64,000 nt of DNA from positions 248,001-312,000 of the forward strand of contig NZ_CP098518.1 of the NCBI RefSeq assembly GCF_023703795.1, in the 5' to 3' direction. Made by a program: the position numbers and the translations under genes. Under the pieces are notes generated by a model that made no database searches, was not told the DNA's origin, and was given only the letters and a program-made list of their open reading frames with translations. The DNA comes from Haloplanus sp. HW8-1. GTDB taxonomy: Archaea; Halobacteriota; Halobacteria; Halobacteriales; Haloferacaceae. Positions 33,466 to 51,915 of the stretch are shown piece by piece; position 1 is the stretch's first letter; each line of letters begins with the position of its first letter.

Positions 33466-34581
33466 ATGGGCAAACAGACAACTCAGACCGAGACCGTAAC
33501 GTCCCTCGAACATCTCGAAACCGTCGTCGACTCCGATTTCCACCTGTCGGAGCAACAGGACGACTTCCTCTCGTATCTCCCGAGTCCCTTTCACGACATG
33601 CTGTTCCACGAGAGTCGGGACATTCCCATGGGATACCTCAAGGATTTCTATCCGACGGCGGGTCTGTTGACGCCGGTGGCGACCGGGAACGTCGAGATGA
33701 ACAAGGTTCGATCACAGGCGGACATCATCGAAGGCAAGGACCTCCTGAACGTCGACCGGGCCATCGTGACCCCGACGCTGAACCTCTATCTTGGCGGTGT
33801 CCACCACGACGACCTCGCGGCGGCGCTGGCACACGCTTACAACGAGTGGGTGCTCGACGAGATATACAACCCCGACGAGGGGATCTACGGACCGGTGGTC
33901 GTGGCGCCCCAGAAGCCACAGGAGGCGGCCGCTGAGATCGAGGATCGGGCCGGGGAAGACGGGATCGTGAGCGTCTTCATCCCGAGTGGCGGCGTCCACC
34001 CGCCACTCGGGAACGAACAGTACTTCCCGATCTACGCGGCGGCCGAGAACGCCGGGCTTCCCGTCCAACTCCACAGCGCGTCGGGCACGCAGATGTTGAG
34101 CTTCCCGCTCCAGTTCCACGGGTCGAACCGGTATCTCAGCAACCACGCCCCGACCCACGCCATGGTCCACATGACACATCTGACCGACATGATCACGCGG
34201 GGTGTCCCGGTCAGGTTCCCCGACCTGGACATCGTCTTCCAAGAGGCCGGTCTCGGGTGGGTGCCGTACATGACCCGTCGACTCGACAACGAGTACTCCG
34301 AGAAGCGATCCGACGCCCCGATGCTGGAGAAGATGCCGAGCGAGTACGTCGACGACCAGTTCTACTTCACGAGCCAACCGGTCGAGGGAGCGAAGGACCC
34401 GGACTACATCGGTCCGATCGTCGGTCTCATGGGCCCCGACAACCTCATGTTCTCGTCCGACTATCCGCATCTGGACTTCGATCACTCCGACTACCTGTTC
34501 TCCGCGCTGCGGAGCAACTTCGAGTCGTCGGACGTCGCCAACGTGTACGGCCAGACCGCTCTAGAGATCTACGACTTCTAA
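33466..34581 (+). CDS. amidohydrolase-2 (ACMSD-type) metal-dependent hydrolase/decarboxylase
   Basis: 371 residues. The metal-site start is VVDSDFHLSEQQ (D-x-H), with a mid-barrel His in VQLHSASG, a His-rich THAMVHMTHLTDM helix, FPDLDIVFQEAGLGW and the last Asp in FSSDYPHLDFDHS. These match the PF04909 group of zinc-dependent hydrolases and non-oxidative decarboxylases (ACMSD, gamma-resorcylate and related). It starts the cluster with a Rieske ferredoxin 8 nt downstream and a VOC protein after that. Two further copies lie at 49294 and 50803 around another Rieske gene. AAAATTT about 32 nt upstream is a possible TATA element. Confidence 0.88.
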   Translation: MGKQTTQTETVTSLEHLETVVDSDFHLSEQQDDFLSYLPSPFHDMLFHESRDIPMGYLKDFYPTAGLLTPVATGNVEMNKVRSQADIIEGKDLLNVDRAIVTPTLNLYLGGVHHDDLAAALAHAYNEWVLDEIYNPDEGIYGPVVVAPQKPQEAAAEIEDRAGEDGIVSVFIPSGGVHPPLGNEQYFPIYAAAENAGLPVQLHSASGTQMLSFPLQFHGSNRYLSNHAPTHAMVHMTHLTDMITRGVPVRFPDLDIVFQEAGLGWVPYMTRRLDNEYSEKRSDAPMLEKMPSEYVDDQFYFTSQPVEGAKDPDYIGPIVGLMGPDNLMFSSDYPHLDFDHSDYLFSALRSNFESSDVANVYGQTALEIYDF

Positions 34582-34589
34582 TCCGATCT

Positions 34590-34973
34590 ATGACCACCAC
34601 AGACGATTCACCGGAGACGGAGTCCCTCCACTACGTGGCCGACGTCGACGAGATCACGGACGGCGACCGCGTGATCGTCGACGTCGAGGGACGGGAGATC
34701 GCCGTGTTCAACGTCGACGGGGCGTTCCACGCGCTCTCGAACTACTGCATCCACCAGGGTGGACCGGCGTGTGAGGGGTTGATATCGGGTTCGCTGGAGG
34801 TCGACGACGAGATGGAATTGACCTACGACTCCACGAACAAGGTCGTGTCCTGTCCGTGGCACGGATGGGAGTTCGAGATCGAATCCGGGGAGCACCTCGC
34901 GCCCACCGACTACCGGTTACCGACCTACCGGGTCGTCGTTCAGGACGGAGCCGTCTACCTGGATAGCTACTGA
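34590..34973 (+). CDS. Rieske [2Fe-2S] ferredoxin with long inter-ligand loop
   Basis: 127 residues. Cluster ligands are C-x-H in NYCIHQGGPACEG and C-x-x-H in SCPWHGWEFEIESG, separated by 32 residues where dioxygenase ferredoxins have about 15-17; the extra loop (SGSLEVDDEMELTYDS) is acidic. A fourth Cys in GGPACEG is shared with the 50444 protein. No signal peptide or anchor, so a soluble electron carrier or redox subunit. It begins 8 nt after the amidohydrolase stop, so translation is probably coupled. No ring-hydroxylating oxygenase or ferredoxin reductase is nearby. Confidence 0.92.
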   Translation: MTTTDDSPETESLHYVADVDEITDGDRVIVDVEGREIAVFNVDGAFHALSNYCIHQGGPACEGLISGSLEVDDEMELTYDSTNKVVSCPWHGWEFEIESGEHLAPTDYRLPTYRVVVQDGAVYLDSY

Positions 34974-35064
34974 CCGTACGACCGCGTTGACACGGACGTA
35001 CGCCGGGATCGGTCGCCGTTCCTCCTCCCCGAAATATAAATCGCTGGAAGGCCCGGGGAGTATC

Positions 35065-35454
35065 ATGGGTCTCATCCACACGGCGATCCAGGTTTCGGAT
35101 CTCGACGCGACACGAGCGTTCTACGAAGACGCACTGGATTTCGAACATCGGCTGGACTTCGAGTGGCCCGCCGACGACGAGGACGCCGTCTACAACTACT
35201 ACGTCGGCCGTGGCGACGGTGCCGAAATCCAGTTCCGGTACGATCCGGGGCGGACGGATCCGGTCGAGCCGACGGGGATCGACCACCTCGCGCTGGACGT
35301 CGACGACGTCGACGCCGAGTTCGACCGACTCGTCGAGGCGACTGACTGTCCCGTGGTGAGCGAACCAACCACCGTAGACCCGGCGGGCACGCGCGTGGCG
35401 TTCGTCGAGGATCCCGATGGATACGTGGTGGAACTGGTCGAGCAACTCGAGTGA
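35065..35454 (+). CDS. VOC/glyoxalase-family metalloprotein
   Basis: 129 residues, two beta-alpha-beta-beta-beta modules. LIHTAIQVSDLDATRAFYED contains the first-strand His ligand, GIDHLALDVDDVDAEF the second His, and VAFVEDPDGYVVELVE the Glu ligand; GAEIQFRY is likely the other acidic ligand strand. Relatives are glyoxalase I, methylmalonyl-CoA epimerase and extradiol dioxygenases; length fits the single-chain glyoxalase form. AAATATAAAT near 35032-35041 lies 28 nt upstream, so it has its own promoter although it follows the Rieske gene by only 91 nt. Confidence 0.85.
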   Translation: MGLIHTAIQVSDLDATRAFYEDALDFEHRLDFEWPADDEDAVYNYYVGRGDGAEIQFRYDPGRTDPVEPTGIDHLALDVDDVDAEFDRLVEATDCPVVSEPTTVDPAGTRVAFVEDPDGYVVELVEQLE

Positions 35455-35683
35455 GAACCGGAGCGGCCACCGTGCCCGCGCTCGCAACCTCGTCGGAGGA
35501 GCTATCCGGTACTCGCCTCGGCCGACGCGGGTGACTCACGCTCCTCCACCGGGACCGCCGACGGAGTGTATGGGCCGGGACTGCATCCCATGCCGTCGAC
35601 CCCCGTAATATGTCAATAAAAAAACTATTTCTGGATATCATAATGGACAAAACTTTTGTATCATCATTGTTATTCGGTGTCAT

Positions 35684-37342
35684 ATGCGGTCCGATAACAT
35701 ACGGACGGCTGACGGTATCGATCGGCGGAAAATGATGAAGGCCCTCGTCGCGGGGGGGTTCCTCACGATCGCCGGCTGTGGCGGTGGTGGCGGGGATGGC
35801 GGCGACGGCGGTGGCGGGGACGGCGGGGACGGCGGTGGCGGGGACGGCGGTGACGGCGGTGACGGCGGCGACGGCGGGGACGGCGGTGGCGGTGACGGCG
35901 GTGACGGCGGCCCCGAGGGTTACCTCGAGGAGGCCCAGTCGCTTCCCTGGACCGAAAACTGGCAGGAACGCCTCGGGTACGCGAACCCGATGGAGTCCTG
36001 GCCGCCGGAGGACCGTCAGGACGTCCCGCCGGGTGACCAGCCGACCGACTGGGCCGGCCGCGGAGCGGTCGAGACCGCGGTGTATTCGCTGCCGGAAGGC
36101 TGGGAAGACACCAGCGCTGCGGACGTCGACAACATCCAGATCGCCAACTTCGGATCCTTGGAGTTCGACCCGGCGACGGTCGCTCGTCACGAGGTGTTCA
36201 CCCGGGAGACGGGAATCTCCCGTGACTACATCACGTCCGAGGTCAACACCGCGATTCCCCAGCAGCAGTCCTTCCTGAGTTCACAGCAGGGCTCGCCGGT
36301 GGCGTTCAACGTCGAGTTGCAGACGTTCACCTCCTTCGTCCAGAACGGCTGGATCGAGACCCAGCAGCCGCTCTGGGGCGACGGTGGGCCGTTCGAGGCG
36401 TTCCCCGACGTCGTCTCGGAAGTTCTCTCCTCGGATCGGGATCCCGACTCCGACGAGGAGCAGGTGTACTACGCACCGCAGATCATGAACATGCCGGTCT
36501 ACCACGTCAACCGGGCGCTCCTTGAGGAGCAGGGCGTGGACCCCGAGATCGCCAACGGCGAGTGGACTTGGGACGACCTGGACACGGTCATCGACGCCTT
36601 CCAGGACGTCGAGGCGATGGGCTTCGCGTTCCACGGGGCCAACGACGTGTACACCCTGTTCGACTTCATGCTGACGGTGTACCAGCAGGGCGGGCAGTTC
36701 GTCGCCGACGACGGGACGGTCCAGTTCAACACGGACGCCCACTACCGGGCGATGAACCGGCTGGTCGACATGGTCGACCGTCTCCCGCAGTCCATCCTCA
36801 ACTTCGGCCAGGGCGACCTGACCGACGTGTTCCTCTCCGAGAACGCGGCGATCACCTGGCGGTGGAGTTCGTTCGTTCCGGAGGCGCTGAGCAACTTCGG
36901 CGACGACTACTACATGGCGAAGCCGCCGGCGGCCACGGAAGGACCGGACCCCGCCCAGCGGTCGATGTTCAACCCGAACCTGCTGGCCATCAACCCGTTC
37001 GCGTCCGACGCGAAGAAACTGGCCGCGCTGACCCTCGCCGACGTGAACCGCTCCTACGCCGCCTCGTGGTGGGAGTACACGTACGAGGGGAACCTCTCGT
37101 ACGCGACCCAGGTCTACGAGGACGCGCTGCAGATGCAGGAGATGCTGCCCGAGTGGCAACAGCTCTTCAGTGAGCAGATCGCCGAAACGCAGGAGCTGTC
37201 GAACGTCGAGGTGTGGCCGTCGATGAACGCGACCCAGCAGCGGACCGCGGAGGAGATCTCCCTCGCCCTCGCCGGCGAGAAGTCACCGGACCAGGCGGTC
37301 GAGGACCTCCAGTCGTACATCGACGAGGTCCTCCAGCAGTAA
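35684..37342 (+). CDS. ABC transporter solute-binding lipoprotein (CUT1 sugar type)
   Basis: 552 residues. The N-terminus has a twin-arginine signal (DRRKMMKALVAGGFL) and a lipobox TIAGC with lipidation Cys32, as is usual for haloarchaeal binding proteins exported by Tat and anchored to the membrane. Residues 33-76 are a Gly/Asp tract forming a flexible tether. The mature part follows the family 1 extracellular solute-binding pattern (LLEEQGVDPEIANGEWTWDD, VQFNTDAHYRAMNRLVDMVD). It precedes two permeases by 84 nt. AT-rich DNA at 35610-35680 should hold the promoter. Substrate probably a sugar or oligosaccharide. Confidence 0.9.
   Translation: MRSDNIRTADGIDRRKMMKALVAGGFLTIAGCGGGGGDGGDGGGGDGGDGGGGDGGDGGDGGDGGDGGGGDGGDGGPEGYLEEAQSLPWTENWQERLGYANPMESWPPEDRQDVPPGDQPTDWAGRGAVETAVYSLPEGWEDTSAADVDNIQIANFGSLEFDPATVARHEVFTRETGISRDYITSEVNTAIPQQQSFLSSQQGSPVAFNVELQTFTSFVQNGWIETQQPLWGDGGPFEAFPDVVSEVLSSDRDPDSDEEQVYYAPQIMNMPVYHVNRALLEEQGVDPEIANGEWTWDDLDTVIDAFQDVEAMGFAFHGANDVYTLFDFMLTVYQQGGQFVADDGTVQFNTDAHYRAMNRLVDMVDRLPQSILNFGQGDLTDVFLSENAAITWRWSSFVPEALSNFGDDYYMAKPPAATEGPDPAQRSMFNPNLLAINPFASDAKKLAALTLADVNRSYAASWWEYTYEGNLSYATQVYEDALQMQEMLPEWQQLFSEQIAETQELSNVEVWPSMNATQQRTAEEISLALAGEKSPDQAVEDLQSYIDEVLQQ
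35780..35911 (+). repeat. GGC-GGT-GAC type tandem repeat encoding a Gly/Asp linker
   Basis: 132 bases made of imperfect 6- and 9-mers (GGCGAC, GGCGGTGAC and variants) encoding residues 33-76 of the binding protein, Gly and Asp only. Such a tract is prone to slippage in multiples of three, which would change tether length without breaking the frame. Confidence 0.85.
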
Positions 37343-37426
37343 CCCCTCTCGACCGGTATCTTCGTCACCTCCTCTTCCGTTCGACGGAATCGATCACGAA
37401 CACGATATTCACACTACACTCAAACA

Positions 37427-38377
37427 ATGGGTACCCAAACGAAGTCCGTCGGTGATAGACTCCCGATATCCGACGCGTTCCGCGAGAGAGCCTCGGATAT
37501 CGTGAACGATCACATAAGAAAGATCCTCCTGGGGCCGGGACTGCTCACGCTGTTTCTGGTGTTCATATACCCGGTCGTGTATATGTTCTACCAGTCCTTT
37601 TTCACGAACATCACGAGCGGCTTCGACGGCGAGTTCGTCGGGCTCCAGAACTATGCGACGCTGTTCCAGTCGGGGCGGTTCATCGGGAACTTCATCACCA
37701 CGCTCCAGTACTCGTTCGGCTCGGTGATCTTCGCCACCCTCGCCGGACTGGGCATCGCGCTCGCCATCCAGCAAGTCGAGAGCGACCGCCTTCAGGACAT
37801 CTACGTCTCGCTCGTCATGGCCGCGTGGTCGATCCCGCTGGCGACGGCGGGGCTGATGTGGCGCTGGATCCTCCAGGGACAGACGGGCGTGCTGAACACG
37901 ATCCTTCAGGAACTCGGACTGATCACCACGAACATCCCGTGGTTGGCGGACTCGACGCTGGCCCTGGTGGCTGTCACCTTCGTCGACGGGTGGGTCCGGA
38001 TGCCGTTCGCGATGATCATCATCTACGCCGGACTGCAGTCGATTCCACAGCACATGTACGACGCCGTGAAGGTCGACGGCGCGACGACGCTCGAGGCGTT
38101 CCGACACGTGACGCTGCCGTACCTGCGCCCGTCGTTGTTCGTCGCGATCCTGATCAACTGGATGTTCGCGTGGCGGGCCTTCGACATCGTGTTCGGGATG
38201 ACCAACGGGGGCCCGGGAACGGCGACCGAAGTGCTGTCCATCACCCTCTACCGGCAGGGGATGGAACTGTTCAAATTCGGGTACACGAACGCGATCGCGG
38301 TGGTACTCGTCTTGGTGACGATGGTCGTCGGTGCGTTCTACGTCAAAGTGATCCTACAACGGGTCGACGAAGTATGA
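37427..38377 (+). CDS. ABC transporter permease (MalF/UgpA type)
   Basis: 316 residues, six predicted membrane helices; the first is LLTLFLVFIYPVVYMFY. The EAA-type cytoplasmic loop that docks the ATPase reads YDAVKVDGATTLEAFRHVTLPYLRP. The short first periplasmic-side region is like UgpA rather than the long MalF loop. The gene follows the binding-protein gene and precedes the second permease by 64 nt, the normal CUT1 importer order. No ATPase is in this operon; the one at 20839 is the likely motor. Confidence 0.92.
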   Translation: MGTQTKSVGDRLPISDAFRERASDIVNDHIRKILLGPGLLTLFLVFIYPVVYMFYQSFFTNITSGFDGEFVGLQNYATLFQSGRFIGNFITTLQYSFGSVIFATLAGLGIALAIQQVESDRLQDIYVSLVMAAWSIPLATAGLMWRWILQGQTGVLNTILQELGLITTNIPWLADSTLALVAVTFVDGWVRMPFAMIIIYAGLQSIPQHMYDAVKVDGATTLEAFRHVTLPYLRPSLFVAILINWMFAWRAFDIVFGMTNGGPGTATEVLSITLYRQGMELFKFGYTNAIAVVLVLVTMVVGAFYVKVILQRVDEV

Positions 38378-38441
38378 TCGGACACCACATCCCGTCTCCG
38401 GAGCACAGACGCGATACGGTCAGCAAACGGAGTGACTAACG

Positions 38442-39329
38442 ATGGCAACAGAGACTCAACGAGATCAGTGGATCGGCTACGAGACGAAAAAGCAGTTCTG
38501 GGAGGCGGTGAAGAGCCGATACGTCGCCCACGCGTTCATGTTCCTGACGCTCTTTGTCGTCCTCGCACCGCTTACCTGGATGTTCCTCACGTCGCTGAAG
38601 CCCAACGACGCGGTGTTCGCACAGACCTATCTCCCCACGACGCCGTTCCAGGGCGCCGTCGAGGCGTACGGCTCGGCTCTCGTCACGAAGGGCCACTGGA
38701 AGGCCGCGATGAACTCGTTGATCATCGCCATCACTTCGACGACCATCGTGATGGCGCTCGGCACGCCGGCCGGCTACGTCTTCAGCCGGTACCGCTTCCG
38801 GTTCGACGACGCGATGTTCCTGTTGGTCATCGTCACGCGACTCTTCCCCCCGATCGGCCTGATCATCCCGTACTACCAGATCATGGCCTACCTCAACCTA
38901 CTCAACACGCGGACCGGAATCATCATCGCGCAGATCTACCTCTGGCTACCGCTGGTCATCTACACGATGCGGAACTTCTACATCACCATCCCGACGTCCC
39001 TGGACGAGTCGGCCAAGGTCGACGGCTGTACCGACTTCCAGGCGTTCAGACACGTCATCCTTCCCTTGGTGATGCCAGGGGTCGCCGCGAGTGCGATCCT
39101 GACGTTCCTGTTCTCGTGGCGCGAGTTCCTCTTCGCGTTCATCGTGAGCACTGACCTGCAGTCAACGACGCTCCCCGTCGCCGTCTACCAGTACATCGGC
39201 GACATCCAGATCCAGTGGGCCTCCCTCTCCGCCGCCGGGACCATGTCTATCATCCCGGCCGTGCTCGTCGTCTTCGTCTTCCAGAAGTACATCGTGAGCG
39301 GTCTCACCGGCGGGGCGGTGAAGGAATAG
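38442..39329 (+). CDS. ABC transporter permease (MalG/UgpE type)
   Basis: 295 residues with six membrane helices. After a cytoplasmic N-terminus (about 30 residues) comes AFMFLTLFVVLAPLTWMFL; the EAA loop is LDESAKVDGCTDFQAFRHVILPLVMPG. The C-terminus ends in IVSGLTGGAVKE, the classical MalG-type tail (SGLTAGAVKG in MalG), so the protein is complete. Third and last gene of the importer operon. It pairs with the 37427 permease to form the translocation pore. Confidence 0.92.
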   Translation: MATETQRDQWIGYETKKQFWEAVKSRYVAHAFMFLTLFVVLAPLTWMFLTSLKPNDAVFAQTYLPTTPFQGAVEAYGSALVTKGHWKAAMNSLIIAITSTTIVMALGTPAGYVFSRYRFRFDDAMFLLVIVTRLFPPIGLIIPYYQIMAYLNLLNTRTGIIIAQIYLWLPLVIYTMRNFYITIPTSLDESAKVDGCTDFQAFRHVILPLVMPGVAASAILTFLFSWREFLFAFIVSTDLQSTTLPVAVYQYIGDIQIQWASLSAAGTMSIIPAVLVVFVFQKYIVSGLTGGAVKE

Positions 39330-39576
39330 TCCCGCTCCCCTCGTTCCGTTCGTCTTCACGGTATCCACGGGACTCGGTTCGAACGACCGACTGCAGACTG
39401 GCGTCTTCTCCGGAACCGGGTGCTTCGTCCCCGAGTACGTGCGCCGCTCGTTGAGTCCGCACCGCATGGCGTCGATCCGTCGGCTCGCGAGAACTTGGAC
39501 CGGGGAAGTGGTGTCATCGGATCCGTCGACGGGGTATGCAACAGGTATAGTTGAATATGATCTGTTTCGCCACCGT

Positions 39577-39925
39577 ATGTCGGACCAGACCATTGTCTAC
39601 GTAACTCGGAGTATTCCGAACGTCGAAACCGAGGCGCTGGCTGAGGGATGTGACATCGAGGTGTGGGACGGAAAACTCCCACCGGAGAAAGATCACATCG
39701 TCGAGAAATTGTCCGAACTCGAGGCGGACGGGTTCCTGTGTCTCCCGACGACATCGACGCCGAGGTGATGGACGCATCACCGAACCTCGAGGTCGTCAGT
39801 ACGTACTCGGTCGGATTCGATCACATCGACCTCGGCGCCGCTGAGGAGCGGCACATCGCTGTCGATCACCCCCCGGTGTCCTCACCGAGACGACCTTTCA
39901 GATCCGTCTCCGCGCACCTCGTCGG
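39577..39925 (+). pseudogene. remnant of a D-2-hydroxyacid dehydrogenase (glyoxylate reductase-like)
   Basis: Translation from the ATG at 39577 gives TIVYVTRSIPNVETEALAEG and on to ELEADGFLCLPT, the N-terminal part of a glyoxylate/hydroxypyruvate reductase. Near 39742-39750 the frame shifts by one base: DDIDAEVMDASPNLEVVSTY then SVGFDHIDLGAAEE continue in another frame, and around 39872-39878 (a run of six C) a second shift leads to PGVLTETT. After that the NAD-binding domain is missing altogether. So the gene has two frameshifts and has lost more than half its length. An intact relative is at 14004. Confidence 0.75.
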
Positions 39926-39962
39926 TGACTGTGACGGCGGGACGAAGCCACGACGCAAATAC
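39905..39962 (+). repeat. imperfect direct repeat, copy A
   Basis: About 56 bases (starting GATCCGTCTCCG and ending GACGAAGCCACGACGCAA) align without gaps to 44584-44639, with about nine differences by eye. The differences show no three-base periodicity, so the similarity is not that of a shared protein. The two copies bracket about 4.6 kb containing an SDR, RidA, Gfo/Idh oxidoreductase and interrupted aminotransferase. Confidence 0.6.
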
Positions 39963-40028
39963 GGACAACGGACGATCGGAAGACCGTCGAGATCTCACCG
40001 ACGATCGGCCCAGTTTGCACGACAGTTG

Positions 40029-40844
40029 CTACCGGCCCTTGCTGCCCCATCCGAAGGCGAGCCACCCACCGTCGGCCGTGATGACCTGCCCACTGATGTA
40101 ATGACCGCCTGCCGCCAGGAACGTCGTACAGTTTGCCATCTCCTCGATCGTTCCAAACCGGCCCAGTGGAACCCTGTTGTGGATGTGGTCGTCGGTGTAC
40201 CCGTAGTACGGCCAGGTCGTTTCGTCGTATACCGAGTCGTCGTCGCCCCGTGTCTGCTCGTCGAGAGGTGTCTTGATGAATCCGGGAGCCAACGCATTGA
40301 CCCCGATTTCGTGTTCGCCCAACTCGACGGCGAAGCTTCGGGTGAGGTTGTTTACACCGGCTTTCGCCGCATTGTAGTTTCCTCGCCCCTGCACGCCGAA
40401 GTGGCCAAACAAACTCGAGATGTTGATGATCTGTCCCCCGTCGTCTCTGTCGACCATTCGCTGACCGGCCGCCTTACAGCCGAAGAACACGCCCGTAAGA
40501 TCCACTTCGATAACCGTTCGCCATTCGTCCTCGCCCAATTCGAGTAACGGATGATTAGCTTGCACTCCAGCGTTGTTGACCATGATGTCGAGAGAACCGA
40601 ACTTCCGAACCGCTGTATCCACGAGTTCTTCAACGTCCGCGTAGGTCGTCATGTCCGCTTCCACGCCGATGGCCTCACCACCGGCCTCGCGGATATCCCC
40701 CGCGACTCGGTCCGCGCGTTCTTGCTTTCGTGAATTCGTCACCACGTTCGCACCCTCTTCGGCGAATCGGACCGCGATGCCTTCCCCGATGCCACTACTG
40801 GATCCAGTTACGATTGCCGTCTTCCCCTCTAATCGCCCGGACAT
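40029..40844 (-). CDS. short-chain dehydrogenase/reductase (SDR)
   Basis: 271 residues. TGSSSGIGEGIAVRFAEEG (cofactor loop), NNAG in DIMVNNAGVQ, Ser in NISSLFGHFG, catalytic Tyr/Lys in GNYNAAKAGVNN and C-terminal ISGQVITADGGWLAFGW. An insert of about 20 residues (TRGDDDSVYDETTWPYYGYT) before RVPLGRFGTIEEM is longer than in typical SDRs and probably lies over the substrate pocket. This resembles glucose 1-dehydrogenase or gluconate 5-dehydrogenase-type enzymes. ACAATATAATCT centred near 40872 is a good TATA box 28 nt upstream. Its codons look less GC-biased than those of the flanking kilobases. Confidence 0.9.
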   Translation of the reverse strand: MSGRLEGKTAIVTGSSSGIGEGIAVRFAEEGANVVTNSRKQERADRVAGDIREAGGEAIGVEADMTTYADVEELVDTAVRKFGSLDIMVNNAGVQANHPLLELGEDEWRTVIEVDLTGVFFGCKAAGQRMVDRDDGGQIINISSLFGHFGVQGRGNYNAAKAGVNNLTRSFAVELGEHEIGVNALAPGFIKTPLDEQTRGDDDSVYDETTWPYYGYTDDHIHNRVPLGRFGTIEEMANCTTFLAAGGHYISGQVITADGGWLAFGWGSKGR

Positions 40845-41768: not shown

Positions 41769-41989
41769 CGGTACACTCCAGGCGAACGTAGATCGGGTAT
41801 CCGAACCACCGCCTGCGAGCGACGACGTTCCGAACGATTGTGTCAGTCGTTTACCGTGCTGGTGGATCCCGATTCGAGGGATGACCGAAGCGGCGAACGG
41901 CGGGTGTTCACACTCCTCGATTTTGGGACTCGTTTCGACGTCCCGTTCGAACGCCGATGAGAGGGTGACGTGAAGACCGACCGAGTCCG

Positions 41990-43337: not shown

Positions 43338-44534
43338 ATGTGTGAGGAGGTAACACATCACCCGCCGGCTGAACTTTCCACCCGAGCCACGAACGCGCAG
43401 CCGTCACAGATCAGAGCCATGTTCAACCGAGCCGAACGGCATGGGGGAGACCTCGTCCGCTTGGAAATCGGTGACCCCGACTTTTCGACACCGAAGCACA
43501 TCATCGAGTCTGCCTTCGATGCGACGCTCGAGGGGGAGACCCACTACACGCCGAACGCCGGAACGCTGGAACTTCGGCGGGCAATTGCCGAGAAAATGGA
43601 CGCGGAGAACAACGTCTCGTACGATCCGGAGAGCGAGATACTCGTCGGGAACGGCGCTATGGAAGCGCTGTATCTCGCGCTACTAACGGTCATCGATCCG
43701 GGCGACGAAGTCGTCGTTCCGATACCCGGATGGCCCAACTACCTATCGTAGATTTCCTTGGTCGGTGGTGAGTGCGTACCCGTTACACTCCCGAAGGAAC
43801 AGGGATTTTCTTTCGACGCAACTCGCGTGATGGAGGCGATCTCGGAAGATACCGCCGCAGTAATCATCAACTCGCCCTGTAATCCGACCGGGGGGGTGTA
43901 CGATTCGAGTGAGGTGTGCGCCATGATCGAGGAGGCCGCCGCACACGACGCGTACGTAATCGTCGACGAAATTTACGAGGGATTACTCTACGAGGGCGAT
44001 CCGACATCTGTCGCGGCCCAGACGGAGTATTCTGACCACGTCCTCACGGTCAACGGGTGTTCCAAAAAGTACGCCATGACCGGCTGGCGTGTCGGGTGGT
44101 TGGCTGGCTCGGAAGGAGTCATCGGTCCGGCAACCAAACTCCACGAGAGTACGACGTCCTGTGCGTCAACGATGTCCCAAAACGCGGCGGTCGCCGCCCT
44201 AACCGGGGATCAATCGCCAATCCGGACGATAAAATCCGCCTTCAGGGAGCGGCGGGACTACGTCGTTGAGCGGATTGAGGACCTCCCTGTAGTCACGAGT
44301 CCGACGCCCGAGGGTGCGTTCTACGCGTTCCTCGACGTCAGCGGACTCGATGGATCGAGCATGGAGATTGTGAAGCGTCTCCTGTACGATTACGGCGTCG
44401 TGACAGCACTGGGGATCGGCTTTTCGGAGTACACTGACGACTTCGTCCGGATTTCGTTTGCCAACAACGTCGACCGACTGGAAGTAGGGTTCGACCGTAT
44501 CGACGAGATGGTGCGTGATTCGGGAGGACACTGA
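43338..44534 (+). pseudogene. class I/II aminotransferase interrupted by one in-frame TAG
   Basis: A 398-codon frame of a PLP aminotransferase (aspartate aminotransferase fold). It reads LVRLEIGDPDFSTPKHIIES, YTPNAGTLELRRAIAEKM, GNGAMEALYLALL and PIPGWPNYLS, then TAG at 43749-43751 (codon 138), then ISLVGGECVPVTLPKEQGF in the same frame. Downstream everything is intact: NSPCNPTGGVYD, VIVDEIYEGLLYEG, the PLP lysine (about Lys243) in NGCSKKYAMTGWRVGW, and FVRISFANN. A Gln codon CAG to TAG change at the usual NYxxQ position explains it. The promoter ATTTTTAAGTAT near 43311 is intact. Either a very recent pseudogene, a sequence error or a readthrough case. Confidence 0.85.
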
Positions 44535-44860: not shown

Positions 44861-45967
44861 CTACACTCTGAACTCTTCGAGCGCGTCCTCGTCGAGTTCG
44901 ACGCCGTGGCCCGGCGTATCCGGCAACTCGATCATCCCCTCGTCGTTCGGTCCGAGCGGATCCGCGACCACCTCGTCGAACACCTTCACGTCCATGTCGC
45001 GGTAGAAGTACTCGACGATCATCCCGTTCTCGACGGATCCAACCAGCGACGCGTGGAGGTTCCAGTTGTAGTGTGGGGCGATCGGTACGTCGTAGGCCGA
45101 CGCGTACTTCGCGATCCGCAGCCACTCGGTGATCCCGCCACAGACCGTCGCGTCGGGCTGGAGGATGCCCGCCGCCCCCTGGTCGTACAGGTTGGCGAAG
45201 TCGTGTCGCGTCCCCTCCAGTTCGCCCGTGGCGACTGGGTAGTCGATGGCGTCGTTGACTTGTGCCATCGTTTCGACCCGATCGATCATGACCGGCTCTT
45301 CCATGAAGTAGGGGTCGTACGGTTCGAACGCCTTGCAGGCACGGATCCCCTCGGGTGCCGACGACCACACGCCGTTGGCGTCCAAAAACAGCGTCCGATC
45401 GGGGCCGATCTCCTCGCGGACGGCCTCGACACGCTCGACCTCCTCCGGGATGGACCGACGGCCGACCTTCATCTTCACGGCGTCGTGCCCCTCGTCCAGG
45501 TAGCGGTTGATCTCCTCGCGCAGCCCTTCGTGGCCCTTGTCGTCGCGGTAGTAGCCGCCGCTCGCGTAGGTCGGCACCGCGTCCGCGTGGGCGCCCAATA
45601 GTTTGTAGAGTGGCTGTTCGGCGGCCTTCGCCTTCAGATCCCACAGTGCGATGTCCACGGACGAGATGGCCCGCAGGAACAGTCCAGTCCGGCCGATCTG
45701 GATGTTCCCTTCGTACATCTCCTCCCACAGCCGCTCGGTATCGCGCGGGTCCTCCCCTTCGAGCGCCGGGGCGAGCCGGGATTCGACGGCGTCTGCCACC
45801 AGCTCCGCTGCCTCGTAGCCCAGCGAATAGCCGACTCCTTCGAGGCCGCTTGCGGTTCGAACGTGCGTGATCGCGTGGTCCCGGAAGTGGATCGTCCGGT
45901 TGGAAAACGATACGGGCGTCTTTAGGGGGATTTTGATCGGATACGACTCGATGGACTCGATCTCCAT
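44861..45967 (-). CDS. mandelate racemase/muconate lactonizing enzyme-family sugar-acid dehydratase
   Basis: 368 residues, close paralogue of the 32232 gene. It has VKMKVGRRSIPEEVERVEAV (K-x-K), metal ligands Asp in LFLDANGVWS, Glu in YFMEEPV and Glu in VATGELEGTRHD, then QPDATVCGGITEW and His in APHYNWNLHAS. It probably dehydrates a C5-C6 aldonate such as rhamnonate or fuconate. The ATG at 45967 is preferred to 46021 because TGATATAATT (45991-46000) lies 28 nt upstream. It follows the FAH-hydrolase and SDR genes, giving dehydratase, dehydrogenase and hydrolase of a diketo-hydrolase route. Confidence 0.9.
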   Translation of the reverse strand: MEIESIESYPIKIPLKTPVSFSNRTIHFRDHAITHVRTASGLEGVGYSLGYEAAELVADAVESRLAPALEGEDPRDTERLWEEMYEGNIQIGRTGLFLRAISSVDIALWDLKAKAAEQPLYKLLGAHADAVPTYASGGYYRDDKGHEGLREEINRYLDEGHDAVKMKVGRRSIPEEVERVEAVREEIGPDRTLFLDANGVWSSAPEGIRACKAFEPYDPYFMEEPVMIDRVETMAQVNDAIDYPVATGELEGTRHDFANLYDQGAAGILQPDATVCGGITEWLRIAKYASAYDVPIAPHYNWNLHASLVGSVENGMIVEYFYRDMDVKVFDEVVADPLGPNDEGMIELPDTPGHGVELDEDALEEFRV

Positions 45968-45990
45968 ACCGAAAACGTCGGCAACCCGGA

Positions 45991-46000
45991 TGATATAATT
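45991..46000 (-). promoter_or_regulatory. TATA box of the 44861-45967 dehydratase gene
   Basis: TGATATAATT centred about 28 nt upstream of the ATG at 45967; gives this gene its own leaderless promoter despite the upstream operon. Confidence 0.6.
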
Positions 46001-46060
46001 TTCCCATGGCGACCAGCCCAACGGCGGGGTTTCGTCGTCCTGACGGGAGGGCCCTGCCGT

Positions 46061-46882
46061 CTATCGGGTCACGGGTGCCTCGACCGAGCCGATCGATTCG
46101 ACCGTCGCACGGACCTCGTCCCCGGGATCGATGGGCGCTGCACCGGGCGTTCCCGTGCTGAACAGGTCACCCGGTTCGAGGCTCATGACCTCCGAGTGGA
46201 ACGAGACGATCTCTGCGGGCGGGAACAGCATGTTCCTGATCTCGTTTTCGGCCTCGACCTGCCCGTTCACCTCGGTCGCGACGCGGAGGTCCGCGAGGTC
46301 GAGCGGTTCGTCGGGGATCGCGAGAGCGTCGCCGGGGACGAGGAAACTGTCGAAGCTCTTGGCGCGCGTGAGAAAGCGCGGGTTCCGCTGGAGGATGTCC
46401 TCGGCGGTCATGTCGATGACCGGGAGGTAGCCGGCGACGACCTCCTCGACACGCTCCTCGGCGACGCCGTGACACGCCCGGCCCATGACGACCGCCAGTT
46501 CGGCCTCGGCGGTCACCCGCTCGCTTTGGGCTTTCGGGGGGAGCCGGATCGGTCCGCCCGGCCCGGTGAGCACCGTGTTCGGCTTCATGAAACTGGCCGG
46601 CTCGTCTGGGCGCTGTTCGTCGAGATCCCCCGCGTGTTCCTCGTAGTTGAGGCCGATGCCCCAGAGCTTCCCGAACCGTTCGAGCGGTGCGGCCAGTCGG
46701 AGGTCGTCCGCGGGGACCGGATCGGCCGGCGCGTCGGCCGGGGTGCCGAGCGTCCCTGCCGCCGCGCGCGGGAGCGCCTCGCGGACGCTCCCCAGATCCG
46801 GGTGGGCGGCACCCAGCGGGACGAACCCTTCCTCGTCCCCCAACAGCGGGCGCCCGTCGGTCGTGCGTGCCAGGTACTTCAT
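46061..46882 (-). CDS. fumarylacetoacetate hydrolase-family protein (2,4-diketo-3-deoxy acid hydrolase or acylpyruvase type)
   Basis: 273 residues. The C-terminal FAH domain (about 70-270) has KLWGIGLNYEEHAGD, ASFMKPNTVLTGPGG, VTAEAELAVVMGRAC (Glu metal ligands), GYLPVIDMTAEDILQRNPRF (Asp ligand), ATEVNGQVEAE and GDLFSTGTPGAAP. The class hydrolyses C-C bonds of 2,4-diketo acids; relatives include 2,4-diketo-3-deoxy-L-fuconate/rhamnonate hydrolase and oxaloacetate tautomerase. It starts 28 nt after the SDR gene on the same strand and is followed by the dehydratase gene, matching the last step of the diketo-hydrolase pathway (pyruvate plus lactate or glycolate). Confidence 0.88.
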   Translation of the reverse strand: MKYLARTTDGRPLLGDEEGFVPLGAAHPDLGSVREALPRAAAGTLGTPADAPADPVPADDLRLAAPLERFGKLWGIGLNYEEHAGDLDEQRPDEPASFMKPNTVLTGPGGPIRLPPKAQSERVTAEAELAVVMGRACHGVAEERVEEVVAGYLPVIDMTAEDILQRNPRFLTRAKSFDSFLVPGDALAIPDEPLDLADLRVATEVNGQVEAENEIRNMLFPPAEIVSFHSEVMSLEPGDLFSTGTPGAAPIDPGDEVRATVESIGSVEAPVTR

Positions 46883-46910
46883 CTCCGTTCACCCCGACCG
46901 CCGCAGGTGG

Positions 46911-47705
46911 TCATAGGTTCGCTCCCGTCGAACCGCCGTCGATGGTGATCGCCGTCCCGTTGATGTATCCCGACTTCGGCGACGAGAGGAAGGACACGGT
47001 GTTGCCCAGTTCCATCGGATCGCCGATCCGTTCGAGCGGGTTCGACGCCCAGTCGGCCAGTCCCTCCTCGTAGGAGTCGTAGTCGCCACGGTCGACCGCG
47101 GCCTCTACCAGATCCTGAATGCGGGCCGTCTCGTGAGGCCCGGGCAGCACCGCGTTGGCGCGCACTTCGGGGGCGAACTCCTTCGAGAGGGTCTTCTCTA
47201 GCCCGATCACGCCCATCCGCACCGAGTTCGACAGCACGAGGCTGTCGATCGCCTCCTTGACGCTCCGGGAGGTGATGGTGACGATGGTCCCGCCGTCGCC
47301 CGCCGCGAGGTGTGGCTGGGCCGCCCGCGCGAGGCGGACGACGCTCATCACGAGGAGGTCGTAGGCCTCGTACCAGTCCTCGTCGTCGATGTCGACGAAC
47401 TGGCCGGACGGCGGCCCCCCGGCGCTGGTAACCAGGTGATCGAGTCGGCCGAACTCCTCGACCGCCGTCTCGACGAGTTGCTGGATGTCGTCCTCGTCAG
47501 TCAGATCGCCGGGCTGTGCCACGACGTCGACGCCGTCGGCGGCGACGGATTCGACGTCCTCCTGTGCCGCCGCGAGTCGCTCTTCGTCACGACCGTTGAT
47601 CACGACGTCGACGCCTTCGCGTGCCAGTGCCTTCGCGGATGCCTTGCCGAGCCCGCTGGACGACGCCGTTACGAGTGCCGCGTTGCCGTCTATTTCCAGA
47701 TCCAT
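46911..47705 (-). CDS. SDR-family protein lacking the Tyr-x3-Lys dyad
   Basis: 264 residues. The cofactor loop is TASSSGLGKASAKALAREG and the fold markers SAGG (for NNAG), TITSRSVKEAID and C-terminal INGTAITIDGGSTGANL are clear. Where classical SDRs have Y-x3-K it reads SNSVRMGVIGLEK, i.e. S-x3-R. The same substitution type occurs in a known divergent SDR group whose mechanism is not clear to me. Expected role from context: oxidation of a 2-keto-3-deoxy sugar acid to the 2,4-diketo acid that the FAH protein then cleaves. The ATG at 47705 starts the first strand; in-frame codons before it are not conserved-looking. Confidence 0.85.
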   Translation of the reverse strand: MDLEIDGNAALVTASSSGLGKASAKALAREGVDVVINGRDEERLAAAQEDVESVAADGVDVVAQPGDLTDEDDIQQLVETAVEEFGRLDHLVTSAGGPPSGQFVDIDDEDWYEAYDLLVMSVVRLARAAQPHLAAGDGGTIVTITSRSVKEAIDSLVLSNSVRMGVIGLEKTLSKEFAPEVRANAVLPGPHETARIQDLVEAAVDRGDYDSYEEGLADWASNPLERIGDPMELGNTVSFLSSPKSGYINGTAITIDGGSTGANL

Positions 47706-47869
47706 GTCGAATGCCTCCACACAGGGAGACCAAAAGGTTTCCCACGACGACACCTGATGCCGGTATCCGTCTCGGGCACCCCCCGTCCGACGGTCCCCCC
47801 CTCGACCGCCGGCGGGTCACACTCGCCGACAGCCACGTCGACGACTCTCCGATCGCGGGCACGAAGGCT

Positions 47870-49099
47870 CTAGGCGGCCGATGTGGTGCCCTCCGTCCCG
47901 GGCATCCGAAGCGAGAGGAGCGTGGCGACGGCACCGATGCCGGCAAGCAGGAAGAACGCCTCGTCGAAAAAGCCGGCGTCGGCGATCACCCCGACGACGG
48001 TCGGGAACCCGGCGCCGACGAGCATGTATCCGGACCGTATCGACCCGATTCCGATCCCCTGGATGTCGTCGTCGAGTGCTTCAGTGAGATACGTGAGCGT
48101 AACCGTCGCGTAGCCGAGAATGCTGCTCGCCATGACGGTGACGACGACCAGCGCGGGCAGTCCGTCGACGAAGGGGAGAAGCCCCATCGTCACGGTGATG
48201 ACGGCGAACACGATCGGGAGGGCGCGCCCCGGTCCCAGCGTATCGTAGGCCGTCCCCGAGATCGGTCGCACCACGATACCGAGCGCGAAGAGCCCCCCGA
48301 ACAGCACAGCCGCGGTGGTCGGCGTGATGCTCTTCATCTCGGCGAGATACGTCGGATAGAACGCGGTGAACGACTGCCAGATACAGTATCCGAGCGTCTG
48401 GACGGCTATCACGGTCGCGATCGCGGGGTCGCGCACCGCCTCGGTCACCCGCCGGAGCGTGGTCGCGAGCGTGGCCGTCTCCGCGGTGCCGCTCCCGTCG
48501 CCGGGCACGGCGACGTGAAGGCCGACGCCGGCGAGCAGGAACAGCGGCACCGCGAAGCCGAGCCCGACCTCCCAGGCGAACGTCGCGGCCAGGAGACTCC
48601 CCAGGGGCGGGAGCACGGAACTCCCGAAGTCGCCGGCGCTCTGGACCACCCCGACCGCCGTCCCGCCGCGATCCGGGTAGGTCGTCACGAGGAGCGTGAG
48701 GCGGGAGACGCCGTACAGTGCCGTCGCGAAGCCGAAGAGGGCGGTCCCGACGAACAGCGCGCCGACGGACCCCACCGTCACCACGAGCGCCAGCGTCACC
48801 GCGGAGACGGCGGTACTCGCGACGAGCAGGCGGCCGGAGCCGGCGCGGTCGTCGAGGAGTCCACCGGGGAGTTGGCCGAGCGCGTACGCCACCCACAGCG
48901 TCGTTATCAGGAGTCCGGCGGTCGTCAGATCGAGGCCAAAATCGGTCCGCAGGTACGGCAGGACGGCGGGGTAGACAAGCCGCACGCCGATCGAGAGAAA
49001 CCACCCGCCACCGACGGCGACGAGCGTCGGTCCTCGACCCCCTCGCCACAGTTCCGCGGCGACGCGACGGATCTCTCCGGCCCGCCCACTGGCGCCCAT
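47870..49099 (-). CDS. MFS transporter (12-helix)
   Basis: 409 residues, 12 hydrophobic segments, starting TLVAVGGGWFLSIGVRLVYPAVL. Loop 2-3 reads LGQLPGGLLDDRAGSGRLLVAS, and helix 4-5 has GVSRLTLLVTTYPDRGGTAVGVVQSAGDFGSS, typical of sugar-phosphate/organic anion cation symporter-like MFS. It sits upstream of the SDR, FAH and dehydratase genes on the same strand, so it may import their sugar-acid substrate. An ATG at 49126 is possible, but ATTATAGG near 49129 fits a TATA box for the ATG at 49099. Confidence 0.86.
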   Translation of the reverse strand: MGASGRAGEIRRVAAELWRGGRGPTLVAVGGGWFLSIGVRLVYPAVLPYLRTDFGLDLTTAGLLITTLWVAYALGQLPGGLLDDRAGSGRLLVASTAVSAVTLALVVTVGSVGALFVGTALFGFATALYGVSRLTLLVTTYPDRGGTAVGVVQSAGDFGSSVLPPLGSLLAATFAWEVGLGFAVPLFLLAGVGLHVAVPGDGSGTAETATLATTLRRVTEAVRDPAIATVIAVQTLGYCIWQSFTAFYPTYLAEMKSITPTTAAVLFGGLFALGIVVRPISGTAYDTLGPGRALPIVFAVITVTMGLLPFVDGLPALVVVTVMASSILGYATVTLTYLTEALDDDIQGIGIGSIRSGYMLVGAGFPTVVGVIADAGFFDEAFFLLAGIGAVATLLSLRMPGTEGTTSAA

Positions 49100-49293
49100 T
49101 GGTGGCGCTGTTTCCGGCCGCATCATTATAGGCTTCGGTCACCCGACCCGGTGGACTCGTGGTCACGCCGCGGCCGGACGGCTGTCGGGAGCGCCGGCGT
49201 CCACGACGGCCGTGACCTCCGTCCGGAGCGATCCCCTCGGACACCGGCCGTCGGTAGACGCCGACGTGCCGAGCGTTCGCCCCGACCGGGGCG

Positions 49294-50406
49294 TCACAGG
49301 TCGAAGACCGAACGCGCCGTCCCCCCGTAGATGGCCGCCACCTCGTCGTCGTCGAACTCCGTCCCGAGCGACTGGTACAGCTGTTTCGTGGTGTCGAAAT
49401 CCATGTGGGGCCAGTCGGACGCAAAGAGGAGGTTGTCGCTCCCGTTGAAGAGTCGGGCGACCCGTGCGATGTACTCGGGTTCGGCCGCGCCCTCGATGGG
49501 CTGGCTCGTGAAGTAGAACTGGTCGTCGATGTACTCCTGGGGGGATTTCTCGAGCATCGGCGCGTCCTCCCGCAACATCAGGTAGTGCTGTTCGTACCGT
49601 CGGATGAAGAACGGAATCCACCCCAGCCCCGCCTCCATGATGACGAACTCGAGGTCGGGATATTTGACCGGGATCCCCTTCGTGAGCATCGTCGAGAGGT
49701 GGAACATCTGTTCCGACGGGTGACAGCAGACCTTCGCGTCGAGGTAACGGTCGGTGCCACGCCAGTGTTGCGGGAAACTCCCGATGAGTCCGTTGATGCC
49801 GGGGTGCATCATCACCGGTAGTCCCGCGTCTTCGGCGGCCTCGTATATCGGATCGTACTTCTCCATTCCGAGCGGTGGCGACACGCCGGCACAGGGGAGC
49901 ATGACGCTCGCGATCTTCGGCTCCGATGCGCGCCGGCGGATCTCGGCCGCGGCCAACTCGGGTTTCTGGGGGGCCACGACCGCCGCTCCGTGGAGCGTCG
50001 GGAGTTCGTCGAGGAACTGGTCGAGGATCCAGTCGTTGTAGGCGCTCGCGAGGGCCGCCGCGAGTTCGCCGTGGTGGACGAATCCCAGTTTCAGGTTACA
50101 GCCACCGGGCGTCAGGATCGCTCGATCCCGGTTCAACATCTCGTCGGCGGCGGCGATGTCCGCCACCGTGTTTGAAAACTCCAGTTGCGTCGTCGACCGT
50201 CCCGACTCGATGGCCGGGTTGAGAAACGCCGGCCCCGGGTAGTGGCCGCTGTACTTCCGGATGGTGTCCGCGTCGATACCCATCGACGCGAACGGGTCAT
50301 CGATATACCCGACGAAGTCCTCTTCCTCTTCGAGCAGGTGGGCGTCACAGTCGACGACGGTCCCGTCTACCTCGTTGAGTTCGCTGAAGCGATCGGTGGA
50401 ATGCAT
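49294..50406 (-). CDS. amidohydrolase-2 (ACMSD-type) metal-dependent hydrolase/decarboxylase
   Basis: 370 residues. The metal-site start VVDCDAHLLEEEEDF, mid-barrel His in VMMHPGINGL, FPQHWRGTDRYLDAKVCCHP, then YPDLEFVIMEAGLGWIPFF and the final Asp in FASDWPHMDFDTT. It is closely related to the 33466 protein (shared DDQFYFTSQP, PQKPE, APMLEK). Downstream of the Rieske gene by 37 nt and the 50803 amidohydrolase, so three genes are in one operon. Expected to be cytoplasmic and zinc- or manganese-dependent; reaction unknown, hydrolytic or decarboxylating. Confidence 0.88.
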   Translation of the reverse strand: MHSTDRFSELNEVDGTVVDCDAHLLEEEEDFVGYIDDPFASMGIDADTIRKYSGHYPGPAFLNPAIESGRSTTQLEFSNTVADIAAADEMLNRDRAILTPGGCNLKLGFVHHGELAAALASAYNDWILDQFLDELPTLHGAAVVAPQKPELAAAEIRRRASEPKIASVMLPCAGVSPPLGMEKYDPIYEAAEDAGLPVMMHPGINGLIGSFPQHWRGTDRYLDAKVCCHPSEQMFHLSTMLTKGIPVKYPDLEFVIMEAGLGWIPFFIRRYEQHYLMLREDAPMLEKSPQEYIDDQFYFTSQPIEGAAEPEYIARVARLFNGSDNLLFASDWPHMDFDTTKQLYQSLGTEFDDDEVAAIYGGTARSVFDL

Positions 50407-50443
50407 GGGCGTGTCTCGCTGTCTTCGTGATTTCGTTCGCTGG

Positions 50444-50806
50444 TTACACCGTGAGGACGACGTCGCCGTCCTCGGTCCGGACCGCGTACGATGGCAGGCG
50501 AGCCTCGTCGACGCGACACTCGCCCGACGTGACGTCGAACTCCCAGCCGTGCCAGGGACAGGTCAACACCGTCCCCTCTGCGACCCAGTCGCGGTCGACG
50601 GTGAGCGTCTCGGGGTCGAAGGTCGCTTCGAGCGTCCCGCTGAGTTCGCCCTCACAGATCGGCCCACCCTGGTGTGGACACCAGTTCGCGTACGCGTAGT
50701 ACGCGCCGTCCCGGTTGAATACGGCGACTTCCCGGCCGTCGACCTCGACGAGGAGACGACTCCCCTCCGGAAAGTCCTCCTCGGCGGCGACGACGTGGTC
50801 GGTCAT
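50444..50806 (-). CDS. Rieske [2Fe-2S] ferredoxin with long inter-ligand loop
   Basis: 120 residues. C-x-H in NWCPHQGGPICEG and C-x-x-H in LTCPWHGWEFDVTSG are separated by 37 residues, even longer than in the 34590 protein. Shared features with it include VEVDGREVAVFN-like start, GGPxCEG and SGTLE. The ATG overlaps the TGA of the amidohydrolase gene (ATGA at 50803-50806), so translation is coupled. No oxygenase or reductase gene is adjacent. It may pass electrons to an unlinked enzyme or serve as a redox subunit of the amidohydrolase product pathway. Confidence 0.92.
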   Translation of the reverse strand: MTDHVVAAEEDFPEGSRLLVEVDGREVAVFNRDGAYYAYANWCPHQGGPICEGELSGTLEATFDPETLTVDRDWVAEGTVLTCPWHGWEFDVTSGECRVDEARLPSYAVRTEDGDVVLTV

Positions 50807-51915
50807 CGCGGAACCCCGAACACCTCCCGCGCGTTGCCGGCGAGGATCCGATCCTGTTCTGCCCGCGAGAACGGCGCGAGGTACCGATCGACCAGCGCCG
50901 ATGGGCTGTCGAAGTCGTAGTGGGGATGGTCCGTCGAGAACATGAGCATCTCCGGGCCGACCATCTGCAGGAGTTGGTGCATGTGGCGCCGGTCGTTCGG
51001 TTCGCCGATCGGTTGGGTCCCGATGTAGAACGACTCCCGGAGGTACTCCTCGGGCGTTCGTTCGAGAAGTGGCGCCCAGTCACGCCGCTGCTTGTAGCCG
51101 CGGTTCAGACGGCCGATCATGTACGGTATCCAGCCGATCCCCGCCTCCAGAAACACGAAATTGAGGTCGGGGAACTTCTCCGGGACGCCCTGATAGATCA
51201 TGCTCGTGAGATGCAACATCTGGGAGAACGGATGTGACAGCGTCCGAACGGCCAGCCAGTTCTCGAGGTCCCGAACCAGCGTCGGGAAGTCCCACTGCAC
51301 GGCCGCGCCGGAGAACCCGTGGGTGACGATCGGTAGATCGTTGTCCTGGGCCGCCTGGTACAGGACGTCGTACCGCGGGTTGCCGAGCGGTTTGTCGGGG
51401 CCGCCGCTCTCGATGAACGCCCCGACGATCTGCCGTTCGGAGCCCATTCGGTCCAGTTCTTCGGCCGCTTTGTCGGGCTCCGTCGTCGCGACCGTACAGA
51501 GCCCGTAGAAGTGGTCGTACTCGTCCAGAAACCGGTCGAGGAGGACGTCGTTTGCCGCCTTCATCTCCGCTCGTGCCCGCTCCCTCGGGAGGTGGTCCAC
51601 GAACGAAGGCGCCGTGTTGAGGATCGGGTAATCGACGCCCAGTTCCTCGCAGACCGGCTGCTGGACGTGTGCGTCCGGTTCCGTCACGGGCATCGTATGC
51701 GCACTGTCCTTGCCGGGTGTCTCGCCGACCCAGTGGTGGCCCGGGTAGGCGAACCTGAACCCCTGTGCCGTGTCCGGATCCAACCGCGTCCGATACGGTT
51801 CGGGCAGCCGCTGTGCGACCGCCCGTTGCATGTCCGGGTGAACGTAGTTGACGTGAACGTCCGTGTCGACGATGGTGAGTTCGCTCTCGTCGCCGTCGGG
51901 ATCGGAACTGTGCAT
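50803..51915 (-). CDS. amidohydrolase-2 (ACMSD-type) metal-dependent hydrolase/decarboxylase
   Basis: 370 residues. Metal site IVDTDVHVNYVHP, His in IVTHGFSGAAVQ, LSHPFSQMLHLTSMIYQG, FPDLNFVFLEAGIGWIPYM and the final Asp in FSTDHPHYDFDS. The order of motifs is that of the 33466 and 49294 proteins, but overall it is the most divergent of the three. First gene of the operon and translationally coupled to the Rieske gene. The upstream 60 bases contain AT-rich GATATTAATATTAT and the 18-bp palindrome (51926-51943). The ATG at 51915 begins just before conserved sequence. Confidence 0.9.
   Translation of the reverse strand: MHSSDPDGDESELTIVDTDVHVNYVHPDMQRAVAQRLPEPYRTRLDPDTAQGFRFAYPGHHWVGETPGKDSAHTMPVTEPDAHVQQPVCEELGVDYPILNTAPSFVDHLPRERARAEMKAANDVLLDRFLDEYDHFYGLCTVATTEPDKAAEELDRMGSERQIVGAFIESGGPDKPLGNPRYDVLYQAAQDNDLPIVTHGFSGAAVQWDFPTLVRDLENWLAVRTLSHPFSQMLHLTSMIYQGVPEKFPDLNFVFLEAGIGWIPYMIGRLNRGYKQRRDWAPLLERTPEEYLRESFYIGTQPIGEPNDRRHMHQLLQMVGPEMLMFSTDHPHYDFDSPSALVDRYLAPFSRAEQDRILAGNAREVFGVPR

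Follow-up and report, generated by a model that had tools for sequence, protein, structure and literature searches.

Amidohydrolase-related dinuclear oxygenases (AROs) are PF04909 proteins that work with small Rieske ferredoxins. In the prototype system, the 2-aminoisobutyrate monooxygenase of Rhodococcus wratislaviensis, AibH1H2 is combined with the Rieske protein AibG and the reductase AibF (PMC7782822, PMC10401708). AibH2, a Mn/Fe monooxygenase (PMC10401708), has the metal ligands D25, H27, H211, E265, D337 and H340 together with the second-sphere residue D342 (PMC7782822; PMC10401708), and activity is diminished in its D342A mutant (PMC10401708). The AROs were discovered through a search for PF04909 genes beside small Rieske genes by Liu et al. 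2024 (PMC10811679), from whom the name and the structures 8SM6-8SM9 originate. The tree of Powell 2023 comprises 555 AibH2-like proteins, haloarchaea included; for 90% of them a small Rieske gene lies next door, and few further proteins co-occur (PMC10401708).

Here we analyse two loci of a 64,000-nt stretch of the Haloplanus sp. HW8-1 genome (NZ_CP098518.1, positions 248,001 to 312,000; the whole stretch is referred to as the window), in which genes for amidohydrolase-fold proteins lie next to genes for long-loop Rieske ferredoxins. The host is a haloarchaeon with a 3.84-Mb genome that is 99.9% complete. Based on homology, ligand conservation and gene linkage, it is very likely that both pairs represent ARO-type monooxygenase systems, each with its own Rieske ferredoxin, i.e. 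systems of a known kind. An earlier note on this DNA had seen in the pairs a candidate for an undescribed system, an ACMSD-type hydrolase or decarboxylase and a ferredoxin without an oxygenase. However, the ARO-Rieske pairing was published between 2021 and 2024 (Hibi 2021, PMC7782822; Powell 2023, PMC10401708; Liu 2024, PMC10811679), and the predicted oxygenase is the amidohydrolase-fold protein itself. New here are the scale and clade structure of AROs in haloarchaea and a third protein family, termed c3. The genes of the two loci, with their predicted products, are as follows.

33466..34581, + strand: ARO 1 (P0001); PF04909 E 6e-37; stop codon TAA; best PDB match 8SM7, E 6e-48
34590..34973, + strand: Rieske ferredoxin 1 (P0002); PF00355 E 2e-15; loop of 32 residues; extra Cys at H+6
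50803..51915, - strand: ARO 2a (P0003); PF04909 E 1e-30; 8SM7 E 5e-50; second clade of the ARO family in the tree
50444..50806, - strand: Rieske ferredoxin 2 (P0004); PF00355 E 2e-18; loop of 37 residues
49294..50406, - strand: ARO 2b (P0005); PF04909 E 5e-37; 8SM7 E 1e-52; paralogue of ARO 1 (48% identity)

The coordinates, spacing and motifs reported before were confirmed. At locus 1, 8 nt separate ARO 1 from Rieske 1, whose ATG is at 34590; at locus 2, ARO 2a and Rieske 2 are joined by an ATGA overlap, followed by a 37-nt gap to ARO 2b. Both Rieske proteins carry the GGPxCEG motif, and their loops, counted between CxH and CxxH, have the lengths given above. In a Pfam scan, three proteins matched Amidohydro_2 above the cut-off (E 1e-30 to 1e-37) and two matched Rieske (E 1e-15 to 1e-18).

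Amidohydrolase-fold proteins as predicted oxygenases

In PDB sequence searches, 8SM7 ranks first for P0001, P0003 and P0005, followed by 8SM6, 8SM8, 8SM9 and AibH2 (6M1W_B), and all decarboxylases score below the four 8SM structures and AibH2, in sequence and profile searches alike. Alignment to AibH2 reveals that the six metal ligands are complete in each of the three proteins, with an Asp at the position of D342, the acidic residue that distinguishes dinuclear members, and strand 1 of all three carries D-x-H, where ACMSD-type proteins have the H-x-H of a mononuclear site. Of 106 haloarchaeal homologues, 103 retain the six ligands and 88 have D342. The same fold and the same six ligands are found in SfbO (8SM6) and in 8SM7-8SM9 (PMC10811679). 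Because of the D-x-H motif, the full dinuclear ligand set and the PDB ranking, we assign the window proteins to the AROs and not to the ACMSD-type decarboxylases. PF04909 is a Pfam family common to both, and weaker PDB matches to decarboxylases are present, which would suit non-redox decarboxylases or hydrolases of the ACMSD, LigW or gamma-resorcylate type whose Rieske partner serves regulation or a redox-linked decarboxylation. Against the features just listed, and with a Rieske linkage that is near-obligatory (see below), this alternative is very improbable; the redox-linked decarboxylase, in particular, is ruled out by ligand set and ranking.

We propose that the systems would operate using the following mechanism. 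The terminal oxygenase would be the PF04909 (beta/alpha)8-barrel protein, with a bound dinuclear Fe/Fe or Mn/Fe centre. The long-loop Rieske [2Fe-2S] ferredoxin would hand electrons singly to the adjacent ARO, which would thereby activate O2 for the hydroxylation or oxidative dealkylation of a small molecule. The two AROs around one Rieske gene at locus 2 may assemble into a heteromer like that of AibH1 with AibH2, and the lone ARO of locus 1 is probably homomeric.

Compared with the aib system (PMC7782822, PMC10401708), the window likewise joins a Rieske protein to a PF04909 oxygenase in which the ligands and D342 are conserved, and locus 2 shares the presence of two PF04909 subunits with AibH1H2. 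However, the non-catalytic AibH1 subunit lacks an equivalent of D342, whereas both locus 2 AROs keep the Asp, the gene order is H1-H2-G-F in aib as opposed to ARO-Rieske-ARO in locus 2, and no aib pathway was recognised here. The order of locus 2 recurs in the pRHL2 cluster of Rhodococcus jostii RHA1, ARO-Rieske-ARO-PDR/VanB reductase-MFS, there with a reductase in addition; this cluster has no c3, and its AROs are distant from the window AROs in the tree. As in the window, the published AROs share a transcription unit with a small Rieske protein and have no classical oxygenase (PMC10811679). The four published candidates are bacterial (PMC10811679), whereas the window members belong to two haloarchaeal clades linked to c3.

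Some haloarchaeal homologues deviate from the AibH2 pattern. Three (L114:5715-7148, L115:7427-8563 and L120:7487-8623; handles denote loci with positions) have D-Q-K-G instead of D-H-H-E; each is encoded next to an ARO with the full site and to a Rieske gene, and they are probably non-catalytic heteromer subunits. A 14-member haloarchaeal ARO clade (L154-L157, L161-L164, L166-L170 and L142:1523-2653) has Thr at the position of AibH2 Asp342 and possibly performs other chemistry. The fourth PF04909 protein of the Haloplanus genome (L008, G000:C1:3404183-3405109), with an ordinary H-x-H, lies beside a zinc-type alcohol dehydrogenase and is not ARO-like in appearance.

Rieske pairing across haloarchaea and the supply of electrons

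In profile searches of 292 haloarchaeal genomes, 73 genomes had Rieske matches, at 128 places, and 71 had ARO matches, at 132 places. An ARO gene lies within 500 bp on the same strand at 115 of the 128 long-loop Rieske places, in 69 of the 73 genomes (ARO upstream in 108). The pairing is far above chance and extends far past close relatives, contrary to the rarity that the earlier note had named as an objection to its own proposal. The joint function that it suggested is supported: at each locus, the ARO and the Rieske protein form one functional unit, in which the latter is the predicted dedicated electron carrier.

The long Rieske loop, which the earlier note had contrasted with that of dioxygenase ferredoxins, is normal for the ARO-linked Rieske family, with 31-37 residues in 102 of the 107 copies read; 91 of them have the extra Cys six residues past the first His. 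In the predicted structure of P0004 (mean pLDDT 82.7), the additional loop residues form a long beta hairpin, located between the cluster loops. The model otherwise displays an ordinary dioxygenase-type ferredoxin fold, with a Foldseek match to dioxygenase ferredoxins (E 4e-8). The other Rieske domains of the genome (L002 and L004, G000:C1) are N-terminal parts of much longer proteins, that of L004 being fused to an apparent glutamate-synthase-type domain (named by eye).

The likeness of the Rieske model to dioxygenase ferredoxins is also what would be seen if these proteins served a conventional ring-hydroxylating oxygenase encoded elsewhere, with the amidohydrolases acting downstream in the same pathway. 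However, PF00848, the family of the oxygenase alpha subunit, has 0 matches in this nearly complete genome, in a search that was positive for control genomes including Haloferax volcanii; an alpha subunit elsewhere in the genome, the other objection foreseen in the earlier note, was thus not found. Combined with the ARO pairing at most Rieske places, this leaves such an arrangement nearly refuted for this genome, with hardly any probability remaining.

The observation that the window holds neither a ring-hydroxylating oxygenase nor a ferredoxin reductase stands, and PF14759, a domain typical of dioxygenase-type ferredoxin reductases, is likewise absent genome-wide. A reductase of this type, linked or encoded elsewhere in the genome, was rejected, as the single PF00970 match (C1:1387941) is located far outside the window and the 33 generic Pyr_redox_2 matches are unspecific, none being singled out as donor. 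Seven PF00111 matches represent soluble 2Fe-2S ferredoxins, a pool that is one possible electron donor. While the AibF reductase gene is adjacent in the aib system, none was found near the haloarchaeal pairs; the electrons would be supplied by a reductase or a ferredoxin pool whose genes lie elsewhere.

c3, a third family linked to one ARO branch

The earlier note had also suggested looking for a third constant partner. Clustering the genes of about 100 fetched ARO/Rieske loci yielded one specific recurrent family besides ARO and Rieske, c3, which is apparently undescribed: a literature search gave no text match to a c3-like partner (supplements not covered). IclR-type regulators were present in 48 of the roughly 100 loci; they are very common in haloarchaea and were for this reason rejected as a specific partner. 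The window contains the following member.

15476..15892, - strand: c3, 138 aa; c3 hidden Markov model E 1e-48; sole genomic copy; 17.6 kb from locus 1

Among the 292 genomes, c3 was detected in 44, with 50 matches. The nearest ARO or Rieske gene lies at most 1 kb away for 38 of these and at most 18 kb away for 48, and the usual distance to the pair is no more than 200 bp. An ARO is present in 42 of the 44 c3 genomes, compared to 71 of 292 overall (hypergeometric p 5e-29). With a clade cut at a score threshold of about 270 bits, set after the tree was seen, 42 of the 44 genomes that carry c3-clade AROs also have c3, compared to 0 of 27 with only other AROs and 2 of 221 without a detected ARO. 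In the ARO tree (FastTree, with long branches and uncertain fine detail), the c3-linked AROs fall into two supported haloarchaeal clades, of which one holds P0003 and the other P0001 and P0005; a 35-row haloarchaeal clade and a bacterial-like clade lack c3. Copies of c3 and of c3-clade ARO loci are one and one in 34 genomes, two and two in 2, and three and three in 2. The c3-ARO distances correlate (Mantel r 0.69; ARO-Rieske r 0.87), as expected for co-inheritance. Relative to the pair (n=42), c3 is located downstream on the same strand in 20 cases, convergent in 11 and divergent in 9. The distribution is patchy, since seven same-genus genomes in the sample lack the ARO, Rieske and c3 genes.

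Further collections yield a similar picture. A scan of GTDB contigs, partly from genomes also among the 292, gave 15 c3 loci, all haloarchaeal, 12 with ARO and Rieske genes within 10 kb. The 16 matches in plasmid records, again all haloarchaeal, are mostly annotated 'hypothetical protein', and ARO, Rieske and c3 are consecutive in some. Natronorubrum bangense and halophilic archaeon DL31 are examples of haloarchaea whose one c3 copy is linked. No c3 was found outside haloarchaea in a 247-genome phylum sample. Three damaged copies, with an in-frame stop or as fragments (G095:C10:5731-6042, G181:C3:373191-373529 and G134:C9:70643-70783), all have ARO and Rieske genes nearby.

The family comprises acidic proteins of 105-140 aa without conserved Cys, in which W39, W40 and W94 are invariant and Y55, D62, R108 and R110 near-invariant (window numbering). 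Sequence searches against Pfam, NCBIfam and the PDB gave nothing credible, and none of 15 members matched MmoB_DmpM at E up to 0.5. The predicted structure (pLDDT 82.7, pTM 0.72) has a flexible N-terminal part, then a helix beginning at the WW motif and, at the C terminus, an alpha-beta-beta-beta-alpha unit. In fold searches, none of the known folds matched clearly (best Foldseek E 0.39; VIA Z no higher than 4.7). Residues ~58-137 weakly resemble dsRBD (VIA Z up to 4.6 over ~65 residues), a likeness that we do not treat as homology.

We propose that one ARO branch most likely has c3 as a dedicated accessory component, with a role as effector, in docking or in assembly. The haloarchaeal branch with all three window AROs would then use a small acidic protein lacking a conserved cofactor motif; an electron carrier is unlikely because neither conserved Cys nor a known cofactor motif is present. 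That c3 is an obligate third component of this branch, with an effector/coupling or docking role, is a more specific proposal that we make tentatively and at somewhat less than an even chance. The mixed orientation, the patchy region and the dsRBD-like resemblance would each also agree with a regulator, or with a hitch-hiker on mobile catabolic islands shared with one ARO clade. However, c3 without an ARO is very rare, no genome whose AROs all belong to the other clades has c3, the association of c3 spans AROs averaging 42% identity with very different neighbours, and the linkage persists while transporters and other enzymes change. Convergent placement, moreover, is unusual for a local regulator, and together with the near 1:1 copy number the mixed orientation favours a protein partner over a local regulator; a regulator or hitch-hiker appears somewhat less likely. 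Alternatively, c3 may be a metallation or folding factor that loads the ARO metal centre and not a stoichiometric effector, in agreement with the single, unlinked c3 for three AROs in this genome and with the absence of a conserved Cys by which c3 itself could hold a redox cofactor. Copies of c3 mostly match c3-clade ARO loci in number, which suggests a dedicated partner, and we regard this alternative as less likely still.

Several points speak against ARO systems with c3 as their component. The literature held no biochemistry for any archaeal member, so that we infer the metals and the O2 chemistry. The three homologues with lost ligands beside full AROs indicate that not every PF04909 protein there is catalytic. 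No homologue of the RHA1-type PDR/VanB reductase was found near the window or any surveyed haloarchaeal pair, using the RHA1 reductase and not AibF as query. Finally, the window c3 lies 17.6 kb from the nearest pair, and this single copy would have to suffice for three AROs.

Neighbouring genes and significance for the ARO family

On one strand, locus 2 continues in the order ARO2a-Rieske-ARO2b-MFS-SDR-FAH hydrolase-enolase superfamily, and a second enolase-superfamily gene lies just upstream of ARO 1.

47870..49126, - strand: MFS transporter, PF07690 E 4e-34; downstream of ARO 2b; probable substrate uptake
46911..47705, - strand: SDR dehydrogenase, PF13561 E 5e-47
46061..46882, - strand: FAH-family hydrolase, PF01557 E 9e-50
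44861..45967, - strand: enolase superfamily (MR/MLE), acid-sugar dehydratase-like, PF13378 E 8e-62; no equivalog cut-off reached
32211..33338, + strand: enolase superfamily (MR/MLE), acid-sugar dehydratase-like, PF13378 E 9e-65; upstream of ARO 1

These genes suggest the catabolism of a sugar-acid-like compound, and the oxygenase perhaps hydroxylates or dealkylates the incoming compound. The second-best NCBIfam match of the FAH-family hydrolase is NF053535, diketo-deoxyrhamnonate hydrolase, with 114 bits compared to a cut-off of 500; as no equivalog model reached its cut-off, we name no substrate. In the same region, an aminotransferase frame (43338-44534, + strand) is broken by an in-frame TAG at 43749-43751, which may reflect a pseudogene, a sequencing error or readthrough.

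Manganese is needed or preferred for C-H hydroxylation by AibH2 and SfbO, the first natural monooxygenases for which this was shown; the AROs characterised so far are few, and the literature surveyed includes no archaeal one. With AROs of several clades in about a quarter of the sampled genomes, haloarchaea widen this field. In addition, an annotation trap is corrected, as genes labelled 'amidohydrolase' would be taken for decarboxylases. Systems of the toluene 4-monooxygenase type combine an oxygenase, a Rieske ferredoxin and a small effector (TmoD/MmoB), and the logic would be the same if c3 were an effector. However, their oxygenase is a four-helix bundle, whereas the ARO is a TIM barrel, and c3 has no MmoB_DmpM match. 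If c3 is a component, reconstitutions in which ascorbate takes the place of the native partners may miss a protein in some branches. The haloarchaeal systems would then represent multicomponent oxygenases of new composition, in which a TIM-barrel dinuclear oxygenase, a long-loop Rieske ferredoxin and a small cofactor-free protein are joined, analogous but unrelated to the MMOB/TmoD-type systems.

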